A program made the position numbers and the translations under genes. Under the pieces are notes generated by a model. It searched no databases. It was not told the origin of the DNA and saw only the letters and a list, made by a program, of their open reading frames with translations. Source: Crocinitomicaceae bacterium (GTDB taxonomy: Bacteria > Bacteroidota > Bacteroidia > Flavobacteriales_D > Crocinitomicaceae). From it: a stretch of 64,000 nucleotides of DNA. Shown piece after piece: positions 25,522 to 30,461 of the stretch. The DNA is taken from NCBI GenBank assembly GCA_021325675.1, contig JAJTCM010000001.1, positions 372,001 to 436,000 of the forward strand, in the 5' to 3' direction. Every line of letters starts with the position of its first letter. The stretch's first letter is position 1.

Positions 25522-26079
25522 ATGAGAAAAATAATTGCAGCAATGAATATGACCCTGGATGGGTTTTGCGACCACACGGAAATGAACGCAGATGATGAGG
25601 TGCATGAGCATTACAATGATTTGTTAAGAAACACGGGCACGCTCATTTACGGACGAAAAACATACCAGCTGATGGAAAGCTACTGGCCGGACATCGTCAA
25701 AAACCCTACCGGGAACAAGCCAACGGATGAATTTGCCGTGCTGATTGACAACATTCCCAAAATCGTTTTTTCCCGTACGCTGGAAGCCGTTACCTGGAAA
25801 AATACAACCTTGAAAAACGAAATCATTCCGGAAGAAATACTGGAGCTCAGGCAGCAGGACGGTTTACCTGTTTTCGTTGGAAGCCCGGGTTTAATCGCCA
25901 GCTTCACACAACTGGATTTGATCGATGAATACCAGATTTCTGTGCACCCGTCAATCCTGGGGAAAGGGTTGCAGCTCTTCAAAAACATTGACCACAAAAT
26001 TGATCTGAAGCTCACGAAGACTAAGACCTTTGCGTGCGGCGCAGTTTGTTTGTATTATGAGCGGAGAAGGGGAGAGTAG
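25522..26079 (+). CDS. Dihydrofolate-reductase/RibD C-terminal family protein
   Basis: Protein of 185 residues in the RibD C-terminal/DHFR-like family (yjbH/YyaP-type), which uses NADPH. Visible features: MNMTLDGFCD near the N terminus, YGRKTYQLMESYWP (about 43-56), and a nucleotide-binding stretch VFVGSPGLIASF (about 113-124), ending with FACGAVCLYYE. Such stand-alone proteins are usually annotated as dihydrofolate reductase family; the substrate is not known. Transcribed alone, ending at a strong hairpin at 26139. Confidence 0.88.
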   Translation: MRKIIAAMNMTLDGFCDHTEMNADDEVHEHYNDLLRNTGTLIYGRKTYQLMESYWPDIVKNPTGNKPTDEFAVLIDNIPKIVFSRTLEAVTWKNTTLKNEIIPEEILELRQQDGLPVFVGSPGLIASFTQLDLIDEYQISVHPSILGKGLQLFKNIDHKIDLKLTKTKTFACGAVCLYYERRRGE

Positions 26080-26138
26080 CCGGAACCCCATTGCGTTGTT
26101 GATCGGGAGGATAAATTCTCGCCAACCGGGCATAAAAA

Positions 26139-26166
26139 AAGCCCCATCGAAAGATGGGGCTTTTCG
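26139..26166 (+). terminator. Terminator, usable in both directions
   Basis: A 10 bp perfect stem (26139-26148 with 26153-26162) and GAAA loop, with T after it and A before it. It may end the reductase gene on the plus strand. It could once have ended a tRNA on the minus strand, whose 3'-end remnant begins next to it. Confidence 0.88.
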
Positions 26167-26169
26167 TTG

Positions 26170-26193
26170 ACGACGCGCAACAGGATTCGAACC
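26170..26193 (-). pseudogene. Remnant of a tRNA 3' end
   Basis: On the minus strand the sequence GGTTCGAATCCTGTTGCGCG reads like a T-loop, the 3' side of a T-stem and an acceptor 3' strand, followed by a terminator hairpin. The 5' part of the T-stem and the rest of the tRNA are missing; instead the AT-rich island begins. The tRNA identity cannot be told. It may be a relic of integration. Confidence 0.4.
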
Positions 26194-26229
26194 AAAATTG
26201 ATACTTAATATATTAAATAGAACTGTATC

Positions 26230-27267
26230 TTAATAAAATTTATAATTATTATATATTATAGTTTGTGAAGAAAAATTTTCAGGCGATTCTACGTATTTTG
26301 TTCTTATTTCGGTTTTAAATTTCGGTTTTATTAATAATTCTAATTGTCCTGATTGGTTAAAGTTTCGGGCTAATACCTTCCAATTTATTTTTATTTTTGA
26401 ATTTTTAGATTCAGGTTTAAAACATAATAAATCAAGGTCAATACTATCGTTTTGGACTAAAATGCTATTTTCAGGTATGAATTGTGCTTCTAATTCGTTT
26501 TTTATAGTAGTATTATATTTTACAGAATCTCCCCACTGTATTCTCTTATCAACCCTTTCAATATTACTTGTTCCTTCAAATTGTAGGTATATTTTATAAT
26601 CTTCTATTACTTCAGAACTATTATTTAAAAGTTTTAGTTTAACAACACAAGTACTAAGATTCTCATATTTGTATATTCCACCAGTCATATTTAAATCAAA
26701 CTTGAATGGTTGAGGACTTTTTTCTTTTTCTAGTGTTTCTTTTTGAAGTCCTTCAAATAATTCTCCATTTAAAAAAAGGATATAATCATCAAAATTTTTA
26801 ATTTTATGTGATAATGAAAAAGGTAAATAAGTAGTGTCTAATTCTTGAATTTGCTTTTTATAATCAATATTTCTTAATGGTTCAATATCTGTATGTTTTG
26901 TAACTTCTTTTAAAAATATTGGATTCAAAGTTTTTGATATACTATCATTATCAAATGTTAAATTTAGTGCTAAGTTTGGACTTTTTATATCATTAACTTT
27001 AACATTTTTAAACCATGTGTTTTTATGCTTGATCAATTCATCTTTTGAAAATTTTGTTCCTCTTGGATGACTGTCGTTGTAATGTCCTGCATCTGTGTGA
27101 CAATCGAAACATAAAACTATTCCATTTTCAAATGTATTTAACCCTCCCTCATTTTGTGGCTTAATGTGATGTATTTCCAATTTGACTCCTTTATATCTAT
27201 GACATGCACAACAATGTCTTGCAGAAGCAACCATTAAATCCTCTTTTATTGTTTTTGAAAATCCCAT
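26230..27267 (-). CDS. HNH endonuclease-domain protein of an AT-rich island
   Basis: Protein of 345 residues. The N-terminal ~75 residues form an HNH nuclease: zinc cysteines C19/C22 and C53/C56, catalytic H33-H34, N48 and H57 in CACHRYKG...EIHHIKP...ENGIVLCFDCH. The remaining ~270 residues are beta-strand rich (for example CVVKLKLLNNSSEVIEDYKI) and not recognised; they could recognise a target or partner. Codon use is strongly AT-biased compared with the neighbours, pointing to horizontal transfer. It is 25 nt downstream of the DUF2806 gene and probably co-transcribed. HNH proteins with an unknown large domain are common in restriction or defence loci; that role is inference. Confidence 0.75.
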   Translation of the reverse strand: MGFSKTIKEDLMVASARHCCACHRYKGVKLEIHHIKPQNEGGLNTFENGIVLCFDCHTDAGHYNDSHPRGTKFSKDELIKHKNTWFKNVKVNDIKSPNLALNLTFDNDSISKTLNPIFLKEVTKHTDIEPLRNIDYKKQIQELDTTYLPFSLSHKIKNFDDYILFLNGELFEGLQKETLEKEKSPQPFKFDLNMTGGIYKYENLSTCVVKLKLLNNSSEVIEDYKIYLQFEGTSNIERVDKRIQWGDSVKYNTTIKNELEAQFIPENSILVQNDSIDLDLLCFKPESKNSKIKINWKVLARNFNQSGQLELLIKPKFKTEIRTKYVESPENFSSQTIIYNNYKFY

Positions 27268-27292
27268 TTTTATTTCAATTGGTAATAGTCAG

Positions 27293-28147
27293 TTAGTTTT
27301 CGACCTTTTCATAATTAGCTATTTTATAATTCATAGTTAACCAAATATAATAATCTTCAATATATTTACAGTTTAAATGTTCGACTATTTGTTTTCCTGT
27401 ATTTGATAATGAGTAATATGATGGAACAGAAAATTTAGGATTAGCTTCATTAATAGGCTTAAATTGAATTTTTTTGTTGTAATAAGTCAATGTAAAATTT
27501 TTCTTCTCTGTATTTTCCATATTGTTAGTCATTTCATTAGGTAAAAATAATCCTAAGGTTTGAAGTTCCTGCAATGTACCATAATGTACTCCTAAACGAT
27601 TCAAAATAGGCTTTATGCTTTCTGGCAGTGAAAATATATCCTTAGGAATTTGAAATCTATTTACGCACAATGAACAAATTATTTCAAGCAATTCTAACTC
27701 TTTTTTCCCAAGCATTTTAACAATTTGGAGCGTGCTCATAGTATAAGCACCTGGTTGATTATATTCTCCTGCAATAATTTTTGCTACTAACTCTTGCATT
27801 TCCTCATTTGAAATTGTTTTTGCATGCTCAATGGTATTCCAAAAGAAATCATTATCCATCTTAATTTCATTTGATTTATTTGGATCTATATATTTTGAGC
27901 TTTTAACAGCTGTATTTATAAGATTAGTAGTATGGCGAAGATTCTCGATATATTGAATTCCTATTATTCCATTTTCTTTTGCTTTTTCGTACTCATCATG
28001 GATTAATTTCTTTCTTATTTCTCCTTCTGCAGCCCATTGGCTAATTTTGAATCCTGTTATTTTATCAATAACTGTTGAAAATAAAGGTGTGCTTGCTACT
28101 TTACTTGCATTATCAATTGCAGTTGTTAGTGAAGAGGGATCTGTCAT
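27293..28147 (-). CDS. DUF2806-family protein of an AT-rich island
   Basis: Protein of 284 residues. The middle segment (about 115-160) with ISNEEMQELVAKIIAGEYNQPG followed by TLQIVKMLGKKELELLEII matches what I know of DUF2806, a family of unknown function found sporadically in bacteria. It is mostly helical, with no signal peptide; the N terminus could be amphipathic. AT-rich codon use like the HNH gene next to it. Preceded by a perfect -7 box. The two genes form a compact operon. Possible defence function is inferred from company and distribution, not from residues. Confidence 0.6.
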   Translation of the reverse strand: MTDPSSLTTAIDNASKVASTPLFSTVIDKITGFKISQWAAEGEIRKKLIHDEYEKAKENGIIGIQYIENLRHTTNLINTAVKSSKYIDPNKSNEIKMDNDFFWNTIEHAKTISNEEMQELVAKIIAGEYNQPGAYTMSTLQIVKMLGKKELELLEIICSLCVNRFQIPKDIFSLPESIKPILNRLGVHYGTLQELQTLGLFLPNEMTNNMENTEKKNFTLTYYNKKIQFKPINEANPKFSVPSYYSLSNTGKQIVEHLNCKYIEDYYIWLTMNYKIANYEKVEN

Positions 28148-28175
28148 ATTTTTTAGTTTTGATTAGATTAATCTA

Positions 28176-28183
28176 CAAAGATA
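28176..28183 (-). promoter_or_regulatory. -7 box of the island operon
   Basis: Perfect TATCTTTG on the minus strand, 28 nt before the DUF2806 ATG. It shows the island uses the host-type promoter. Confidence 0.5.
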
Positions 28184-28289
28184 TACAAATCAATTAATTA
28201 CATATTTTAACCATAGGAATTAATTTCTACAAAAAAATGAAAAGATAAATGCAATGTCGTCCCGAAAGTTTTCGGAGTGAGACTCGAGT

Positions 28290-28400
28290 AAAAAGGAAAA
28301 AGCTTGAAAGTAGAACTCCCAAGCTTTTTCTTTTTTGTTGACCCACTAGTGCTTACCGATGAATAGCTGACGCTCTCATCGGCACCTTGCGTTCTCACCC
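28290..28400 (-). other. Terminator-like hairpin plus degenerate tRNA-end-like segment
   Basis: Between the island and tRNA-Gln. A 10-11 bp stem (AAAAAGCTTG...CAAGCTTTTT, about 28297-28328) is followed by GTTGACCCACTAG (28337-28349), which resembles the 3' end of the intact tRNA-Gln (GTTGGCCCACTAG at 28448-28460). Then comes a hairpin with 7 bp arms, CCGATGA and TCATCGG. No complete tRNA can be folded. It looks like a decayed duplicate of the tRNA end. Confidence 0.4.
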
Positions 28401-28415
28401 AAGTTTAGCCAAACA

Positions 28416-28447
28416 AAAAAAGGAAGCACTTTCGTACTTCCTTTCTC
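28416..28447 (-). terminator. Terminator of tRNA-Gln
   Basis: On the minus strand AAAGGAAG...CTTCCTTT forms a hairpin directly after the tRNA, followed by seven T. Confidence 0.8.
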
Positions 28448-28449
28448 GT

Positions 28450-28521
28450 TGGCCCACTAGGGCTCGAACCTAGACTCTTCTGAACCAAAATCAGACGTGT
28501 TGCCAGTTACACCATGGGCCA
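28450..28521 (-). tRNA. tRNA-Gln (anticodon TTG)
   Basis: A 72 nt cloverleaf on the minus strand. The 7 bp acceptor stem TGGCCCA/TGGGCCA pairs perfectly. The D arm contains GGTGTAACTGGC. The anticodon stem TCTGA/TCAGA encloses loop TTTTGGT with anticodon TTG. T arm CTAGG-TTCGAGC-CCTAG. CCA is not encoded. A terminator follows. It is next to the AT-rich island and may have been its integration target. Confidence 0.93.
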
Positions 28522-28661: not shown

Positions 28662-29765
28662 TCAATGGATTACAAAAGCCGTTTTCTCACGCTCATTTCC
28701 GTTGATCACCAGGCTAATGTAGTGTTCACCGGGATAGTAGGCGCGGGTGGTAATGAATTTAAAGCTGTGCTTTTTACGGATGTGGAGCGCTTCGCCCGCA
28801 CGGATATTTTTCTCTGAGATCTTAAATGTTTTGGAATTGTGGCTGCCGTTCTTGCGCAGAAAATACAGCCGGTATTCCAGGCGGAGGAACAAATCACCGG
28901 GGTCTTCCGAATCAACCTTCAGGCTGAATTCCAGCTCGTTGCCGAGCGCCACCTGCTGCGTTTCAAGTGCAAATTCCGCACGTACCTGCGGGATAGCGGT
29001 CTGGATCCCGAAAAGCGGCAGCACTTCCGGGTGGCCGTTTTTCAAAAGCGTGCGCATGCCGTGTTTCAAAGCCTGGTCTACCTGCGGTGAGTGGCCTTTC
29101 CATTTACGGGCAAAGGAAACGGCCAGTTCCGGGCGGTCCTTCGTCAGGTCGTTGAGTGAATTCGCAACGCTCCGGCGCACCCATTCGGATTCGTCGTTCA
29201 CAAGGCGGTCGAGGATTGGCAGGATCAGCTGCGGATCGTCAAAAAGCAGCGGCACTTTAATTGCCCAGGGCAGGCGCGTACGCATTCCTTCCGATGCCAG
29301 CCGGCGCACATAGCTATGCGGGTGTGAGGCCCAGTCTGACATCTGCCTGGTCATTTTTTCGGGATGGTGGAGCAAAAAGTGGCGCACCACGAATTCGCAG
29401 CTCGTAAATTGAGTGATTTCTTCCATAGCGGCCACGGAAGTTTCAAAATCCTCTAAACCGTAAAGCTGCACGAATTCCGGGAAGAACATGAACTCAAAAT
29501 TAAAGCCGTTCGGATGCTCCCGGCGGTGGCGCGAAATGATCCGGTTAATTTGTTTGACAGCTTCTCTATAATCCGGGCTGAGAATCCCGTTCAAAGTCCG
29601 GGCGATGTGCGTCATGCGTTCTTTCAGCTCATAATTCTCCCATTCCTTGCTGAAAACCTGCCCGAAAAACGCTTGCCGGTTAAAAGCACTGATTTCCGCC
29701 TCCAGGTGTCCCGCCAGCAAGTCCATAAAAGCCTGCGAATATTTGTGTTTGAGTAATTCTGCCAT
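28662..29765 (-). CDS. alkC: DNA alkylation-repair glycosylase, AlkC type
   Basis: Non-base-flipping glycosylase of 367 residues that removes N3-methylated bases. Residues about 1-255 are helical HEAT-like repeats (for example HPHSYVRRLASEGMRTRLPWA, SEWVRRSVANSLNDL) and the last ~105 residues (from about 258) form a beta-rich Ig-like domain, the arrangement that separates AlkC from the smaller AlkD. The ATG at 29765 is chosen: an in-frame TTG at 30323 would add 186 residues that are antisense to maf. A perfect -7 box stands 4 nt before this ATG. Divergent from maf. Confidence 0.85.
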   Translation of the reverse strand: MAELLKHKYSQAFMDLLAGHLEAEISAFNRQAFFGQVFSKEWENYELKERMTHIARTLNGILSPDYREAVKQINRIISRHRREHPNGFNFEFMFFPEFVQLYGLEDFETSVAAMEEITQFTSCEFVVRHFLLHHPEKMTRQMSDWASHPHSYVRRLASEGMRTRLPWAIKVPLLFDDPQLILPILDRLVNDESEWVRRSVANSLNDLTKDRPELAVSFARKWKGHSPQVDQALKHGMRTLLKNGHPEVLPLFGIQTAIPQVRAEFALETQQVALGNELEFSLKVDSEDPGDLFLRLEYRLYFLRKNGSHNSKTFKISEKNIRAGEALHIRKKHSFKFITTRAYYPGEHYISLVINGNEREKTAFVIH

Positions 29766-29769
29766 ACAG

Positions 29770-29777
29770 CAAAGGTA
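29770..29777 (-). promoter_or_regulatory. -7 box 4 nt before alkC
   Basis: Perfect TACCTTTG on the minus strand; no clear -33 element. It predicts a leader of only a few bases. Confidence 0.5.
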
Positions 29778-29862
29778 ATGATTCGTAGATTTGAAAATTC
29801 GTAGATTCGTAAATTGAGTTCGAATCTGCGAATCTACGAATGCGCATAGCGCAACGAATACA
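29778..29862. repeat. ATTCGTAG-word repeat forming a 19 bp hairpin
   Basis: Left arm 29797-29815 and right arm 29819-29841 mirror each other with two mismatches and a 3 nt loop. Each arm is two or more copies of ATTCGTAG(A). It lies between the divergent genes alkC and maf. Confidence 0.65.
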
Positions 29863-29873
29863 TAATTTTCAAC

Positions 29874-29881
29874 TAAATTTG
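29874..29881 (+). promoter_or_regulatory. -7 box 4 nt before maf
   Basis: Perfect TAAATTTG, 4 nt before the ATG at 29886; no TTG at standard spacing. Confidence 0.5.
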
Positions 29882-29885
29882 CCCC

Positions 29886-30461
29886 ATGTTTATCAAACCA
29901 GAAATAAAGCTCGTCCTCGGTTCCAAATCGCCGCGCCGGCAGGAATTGATCCGTCATATAACTTCCAACTTCGAAATCCGGCTCCAGGACGTGGATGAAG
30001 ATTTTGACCCGTCCATGCCTGTTGAAAACGTTCCGGGTTACCTGGCGCAGATCAAGGCCGAAGCGCTTGCAGATACGCTGGAACCGGACGAAATCATTGT
30101 TTCCGCGGACACAGTTGTTGTATTGCAAAACGAGATCCTGGGCAAACCGCAGGACGCACAGGACGCGAAAAATATGCTGGCTCGAATCAGCGGACAAAAA
30201 CATACTGTGATTACCGGCTGCTGCCTGCGTTCCCTGGAAAAAGAGCATGTCTTCAGCGTTCACACCGACGTTTATTTCAATACGGTCAGCCCTGAAAATA
30301 TTGCTTATTACGTCGAAAAACACCAGCCGATGGATAAAGCCGGTTCTTACGGCATCCAGGAATGGATCGGCGTTGTGGGAATTTCCCGTATTGATGGCTG
30401 CTTCTACAACGTGATGGGACTTCCCGTTTCGCGTTTGATCGCTGAATTACAAACGTTTTGA
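29886..30461 (+). CDS. maf: Maf-family nucleoside-triphosphate pyrophosphatase
   Basis: House-cleaning enzyme of 191 residues that hydrolyses non-canonical or dTTP/UTP-type nucleotides to monophosphate and pyrophosphate. Visible motifs: GSKSPRRQELI (about 13-23), SADTVV (about 72-77), DKAGSYGIQEW and YNVMGLP near the C terminus, all family hallmarks. Length is typical. Divergent from alkC, with a -7 box 4 nt before the ATG. Its sub-specificity (YhdE-like dTTP/UTP) is inferred from the SKSPRR variant. Confidence 0.95.
   Translation: MFIKPEIKLVLGSKSPRRQELIRHITSNFEIRLQDVDEDFDPSMPVENVPGYLAQIKAEALADTLEPDEIIVSADTVVVLQNEILGKPQDAQDAKNMLARISGQKHTVITGCCLRSLEKEHVFSVHTDVYFNTVSPENIAYYVEKHQPMDKAGSYGIQEWIGVVGISRIDGCFYNVMGLPVSRLIAELQTF

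Follow-up and report, generated by a model that had tools for sequence, protein, structure and literature searches.

Abi-alpha, the product of an Enterococcus faecalis prophage gene, stops phage Idefix through abortive infection in which cells lyse prematurely, and its similarity to the Pfam family PF10987 (DUF2806) has been noted in one clause (PMC6356687). This protein of prophage 6 in strain V583 belongs to the Abi_alpha family (PF14337, formerly DUF4393). Modular modification-dependent endonucleases, in turn, consist of wH readers fused to HNH, PD-(D/E)XK, GIY-YIG, or PLD nucleases (PMC11037411). Abi-alpha and these modular endonucleases are, together with the Mrr-like type IV nucleases, among the described systems to which a two-gene island from a Crocinitomicaceae bacterium is compared here. 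"The window" is the whole 64-kb stretch of DNA analyzed. With moderate confidence, the island is read as horizontally acquired antiphage cargo at a tRNA hotspot that probably holds two defense modules acting independently, not a single conserved two-component system.

Composition and distribution of the island

The island lies at about positions 26194 to 28254 (~2.1 kb) of the window. Its two genes are both encoded on the minus strand, with 25 bp between them.

26230..27267, minus strand: HNH protein gene, 345 aa (PF01844, E 2.9e-8)
27293..28147, minus strand: DUF2806 protein gene, 284 aa (PF10987, E 2.6e-22)
28176..28183, minus strand: candidate promoter box TATCTTTG, ~28 bp upstream of the DUF2806 start, read from the sequence

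The sequence-only reading of this stretch had described an AT-rich, co-directional gene pair lacking an integrase, and the measurements agree with that description. The G+C content is 26.4% in the island versus 46.1% elsewhere in the window, and the GC3 values of the two genes are 14% and 20%, compared to 55 ± 5% (minimum, 38%) in 45 other ORFs. No recombinase is found in the island or in ten scanned flanking ORFs. The TATCTTTG box is presumably a Bacteroidota -7-like box; no clear -33 box could be read with it upstream of the DUF2806 gene. The flanking genes are housekeeping-like, encoding RibD_C, LuxR-type, and glyoxalase proteins on the left and DNA-alkylation-repair, Maf, and rRNA adenine dimethylase proteins on the right.

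A search of 58 genomes from the same genus, family, or order gave no relative of either island protein apart from one weak HNH-only match. Of 395 genomes in the phylum, 11 have PF10987 above its cutoff, counting the genome of the window itself. The six closest DUF2806 relatives (72, 72, 71, 61, 46, and 44% identity in tblastn) belong to Sphingobacteriaceae, other Bacteroidetes, Flavobacterium, Brocadiaceae, and Brennerbacteria, a scattered taxonomic spread typical of mobile genes. No empty site was found, because the relatives show no synteny at this locus; the flanks of tRNA-Gln differ even within the same genus. The absence from the 58 relatives and the alien composition support the foreign origin proposed earlier.

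tRNA genes, relics, and terminators

The island is bordered by the following elements.

28448..28521, minus strand: intact tRNA-Gln (TTG)
28337..28354, minus strand: second copy of the tRNA-Gln 3' end, an att-like relic (15 of 18 bases match)
28290..28336, minus strand: hairpin terminator behind this second 3' end
26171..26193, minus strand: tRNA 3'-end relic (T-loop and acceptor 3' strand), from the sequence
26137..26164, minus strand: intrinsic-terminator-type hairpin behind the left relic (12-bp perfect stem, T tract)

The tRNA-Gln gene and, on the other side, the tRNA 3'-end remnant with its terminator had already been noticed, and both are present. The left relic, with a perfect T-loop consensus and an acceptor-like end, carries the sole GGTTCGAATCC of the 64-kb window, and the hairpin behind it gives the same kind of ending as that of the tRNA-Gln gene; yet none of the 33 tRNAs of the genome and no tRNA of the 58 relatives shares its sequence, and no parent gene was found. 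The right relic, which is new here, is a degenerate repeat of the 3'-terminal 18 bases of tRNA-Gln and, besides tRNA-Gln itself, the only match with up to 4 mismatches in 64 kb. This repeat encloses only ~94 bp, the left relic has no matching partner, and an integrase is absent. With two tRNA 3'-end relics, each followed by a terminator, the site looks like an integration hotspot carrying traces of more than one integration.

The relics on both sides and the absence of a recombinase would also fit a decayed prophage or integrative element whose genes once served the element, through regulation or the exclusion of rival elements, and are now functionless in the host; several prophages do carry DUF2806. 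However, both ORFs are intact, no further phage gene remains, and the C-terminal domain of the HNH protein is not found in any of the viral contigs searched, which makes such a remnant unlikely. Defense cargo acquired at this hotspot remains the preferred reading, and each of its two genes is considered in turn.

HNH protein and its C-terminal domain

The HNH protein comprises an HNH domain (residues ~1 to 94) and a C-terminal domain (residues ~97 to 345). The former scores 34.2 bits against PF01844 (cutoff, 21.4) and contains both CxxC pairs of zinc ligands (C19/C22 and C53/C56) as well as the catalytic histidine motif E-I-H-H-I, the complete set of metal and catalytic residues that the sequence-only reading had claimed. 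Over its first 94 residues, the protein shares 49% identity with a Manganitrophus plasmid protein that has a different C terminus. The ~250 residues that follow show no significant match in Pfam, NCBIfam, PHROG, or PADLOC, and a single-sequence AlphaFold2 model of the protein yielded no fold (pLDDT 30).

Several origins were considered for this protein and discarded. It has no match in phages or viral contigs, which argues against a phage origin. The HNH domain resembles that of Septu PtuB in sequence (PADLOC, E 1.7e-4), but the island contains no PtuA ATPase gene, and the neighbor of the HNH gene is DUF2806. The likeness to IscB is confined to the HNH region (a partial NCBIfam match, E 2e-11, with 43 bits versus a cutoff of 175); the RuvC-like nuclease and the PLMP domain of IscB are not present.

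The C-terminal domain recurs in four other Bacteroidota proteins, one of them encoded on a Hymenobacter plasmid and the others in three genomes (loci L099, L100, and L203), and always stands behind an Mrr-like PD-(D/E)xK nuclease. The N termini are similar to Mrr_cat_2 (PF13156) in L052, L099, and L100, with Pfam scores near the cutoff, and by eye in L203. Homology of the C-terminal parts is indicated by E values of 1e-7 to 1e-13 and shuffle z-scores of 21, 14, and 13, whereas local alignments of the window's HNH domain with the Mrr-like N termini give scores of only 21 to 27, as for unrelated sequences. This combination is a domain swap, with HNH in the place of Mrr-like PD-(D/E)xK on a shared C-terminal domain. 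The domain is rare: several hundred genomes, that of the window among them, yielded 3 to 4 clear cases, and it was found in five proteins in all.

The genes for three of these four nucleases have defense-type neighbors. One lies beside Piwi and SIR2 genes of a short pAgo-SIR2 system (L052), another directly before McrB (with EVE) and McrC (L129), and a third has putAbiC-like (weak), Abi_alpha-like, and type IIG restriction-modification (RM) neighbors (L204); in L128, no defense-type neighbor was found beside the nuclease. These four Mrr-like proteins have the C-terminal domain in common with the window protein, and defense neighborhoods are a further point of likeness, but they differ from it in their PD-(D/E)xK N-terminal nuclease, which in the window protein is an HNH domain. 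The modular modification-dependent endonucleases follow a similar logic, in which different nuclease domains can be joined to one reader-like domain, although the C-terminal part of the window protein includes no recognized reader domain.

That the HNH protein is a homing or self-mobilizing nuclease, with DUF2806 as its passenger, is very improbable. The foreign origin of the island and the partial resemblance of the HNH domain to that of IscB are consistent with this idea, but the RuvC and PLMP parts are missing, and the C-terminal domain links the protein to Mrr-type nucleases beside restriction systems, not to homing enzymes. A restriction-type enzyme carried as defense cargo is the more likely assignment.

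The four genes at L204:464-7110 (G557:C59) form a defense-like cluster and encode a type IIG RM protein (DUF7149/Eco57I), an Abi_alpha-like protein of 223 aa, a putAbiC-like protein, and the Mrr-like nuclease.

DUF2806 and Abi-alpha

The second protein of the island had been described as DUF2806-type, and it scores 80.2 bits against PF10987 (cutoff, 24.5). It consists of N-terminal helices, a conserved helical core (residues 100 to 158) with the motif SNEEMQELxAKIIAGE...P, and a weakly winged-helix-like C-terminal part. In the AlphaFold2 model (pLDDT 83), the N-terminal half is helical. VIA-align comparisons of residues ~147 to 259 return many PadR/MarR-type winged-helix matches with Z of ~4.5; all are below 5 and are taken as a hint only. 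Foldseek searches with the model show no PDB match below an E value of 1 and a single viral hit, an unnamed protein, at E 1e-9. The Dps-like proteins retrieved from PDB sequences with the DUF2806 profile (E 3e-4) were regarded as chance matches, and no PADLOC model matches the protein.

The core motif, in the form S-N-E-E-M-Q-x-L-x-A-x-I-x-A-G-E...P, suggested Abi_alpha as a relative. In hhalign comparisons, a DUF2806 profile of 28 proteins aligns with an Abi_alpha profile of 4 proteins over 182 co-linear columns (probability 96.5%, E 8.7e-10), compared to a probability of 0.1% for an unrelated control profile. An HMM built from five Abi_alpha proteins ranks 37 of 39 DUF2806 ORFs above every unrelated ORF among 573. 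The Pfam Abi_alpha model itself reaches one member of the wider DUF2806 family below its cutoff (E 6e-4; 21 bits, cutoff 29). The window protein has no match to PF14337 at an E value of 1 or less, and its narrow subfamily alone scores just 18.9% against Abi_alpha in hhalign, so the link runs through the wider DUF2806 family. These comparisons support homology of DUF2806 to Abi-alpha at the family level, and from it we infer that the two may have the same function. Both proteins are products of single genes in prophage or mobile contexts and are similar in length (272 aa for Abi-alpha and 284 aa for the window protein). They differ in that the window protein belongs to PF10987 and has a Bacteroidota host, and a clear prophage location is seen for just one of the six relatives closest to it.

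Two Abi_alpha genes lie next to each other in one Bacteroidota genome (L162 and L167; G075:C11:256690-257807).

Genomic neighborhoods of DUF2806

DUF2806 genes are found in both phage and defense surroundings. In a viral contig (L069:5242-9063), a portal-type (DUF4055) gene and a terminase gene flank the DUF2806 gene, which runs on the strand opposite to theirs, in the manner of a moron. DUF2806 adjoins a portal-type gene in L079 and integrases in L075 and L083, the former being a phage integrase at tRNA-Met. In L078, it is located within an HsdM-HsdS-HsdR (type I RM) cluster. Other neighbors include ThsB (L088), OLD (L095), DndB (L056), and DNA methyltransferases (L077 and L087, with a C5-methyltransferase and a LexA-like protein in L077), and putAbiC is also found in the wider loci. 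Ordinary neighbors are seen in L076 (housekeeping genes), L085, L086, and L090. This tally describes the neighborhoods without a matched control and does not amount to a tested enrichment. Homologues of each island gene thus occur in prophages and defense-type neighborhoods, in line with the defense or mobile character suggested earlier. The island is real and foreign, and homology and context mark it as defense-like.

The sequence-only reading had also treated the HNH and DUF2806 genes as a pair, and here the data point the other way. When ~38 other DUF2806 loci, the six closest (43 to 72% identical) included, were searched with an HMM for the HNH domain, none had an HNH gene of the window's kind nearby, and none of the loci carrying the C-terminal domain has a DUF2806 gene. 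A conserved HNH-DUF2806 pair was accordingly rejected. A lack of co-occurrence elsewhere had been named beforehand as evidence against the proposal; it largely holds for the pair, because neither gene's homologue loci contain the other, but it does not apply to the genes taken singly. The missing HNH partner could be an effect of the few close relatives sampled.

These neighborhoods also bear on whether the two genes form one obligate two-component system, co-transcribed from one promoter, with the HNH protein as effector and DUF2806 as sensor or regulator. The common strand, the 25-bp gap, and the equally extreme AT bias of both genes would fit such a system. So would an AT-rich gene for a 268-aa protein (L072:1958-2761), 184 bp downstream of a 72%-identical DUF2806, which has a PD-(D/E)xK-like motif by eye and no Pfam or PADLOC match, and a gene annotated as a restriction endonuclease that adjoins DUF2806 in L054; from these two, DUF2806 may repeatedly be accompanied by a nuclease, though not always one of the same type. 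In L204, the C-terminal-domain nuclease is two genes away from the Abi-alpha-like gene. On the other hand, the closest DUF2806 relatives have other partners or none, namely, a GNAT-like protein (by eye, L073), KilA-N (L074), a phage integrase, or housekeeping genes, and the HNH gene is missing from all ~38 loci. An obligate two-component system is improbable on this evidence, and two independent modules on one piece of cargo is the arrangement followed below.

Proposed functions

As an Abi-alpha-like protein, DUF2806 would be present before infection, sense a late step of phage infection, and kill or lyse the cell before new phages have been completed, a last-resort abortive infection. The HNH protein is a predicted restriction-type, DNA-cutting nuclease. 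Its C-terminal domain may recognize either a state induced by phage or incoming DNA, perhaps in modified form, and thereby direct the swapped-in HNH domain to the target, by analogy with modification-dependent (type IV) restriction enzymes. A bolder version can be offered as a tentative possibility: the C-terminal domain might be a new phage-sensing or DNA-reading module in a family of antiphage nucleases whose catalytic domain is exchangeable (HNH in place of Mrr-like PD-(D/E)xK), here in a two-tier defense with an Abi-alpha superfamily protein, which would cut first and kill the cell if that fails.

DUF2806 is a widespread family without an assigned function, and its homology to Abi-alpha provides a direct, testable hypothesis of single-gene abortive infection, one that would cover the whole family, outside Firmicutes as well. 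A clean domain swap brings to light the C-terminal domain common to the HNH and Mrr-like nucleases, a candidate for a new recognition domain in restriction-type defense.

Flanking genes

The RibD_C/dihydrofolate-reductase-like gene at 25522-26079 adjoins the island, and a gene of this type, as judged by its sequence (L072:2887-3456), adjoins the DUF2806 gene pair in L072; this is probably a coincidence. On the other side, the 553-aa DNA-alkylation-repair ORF, listed at 28662-30323, has its start placed too early. About 150 residues at its N terminus are read antisense to the Maf gene (29886-30461), and this accounts for the many false partial matches of the ORF in the relatives.
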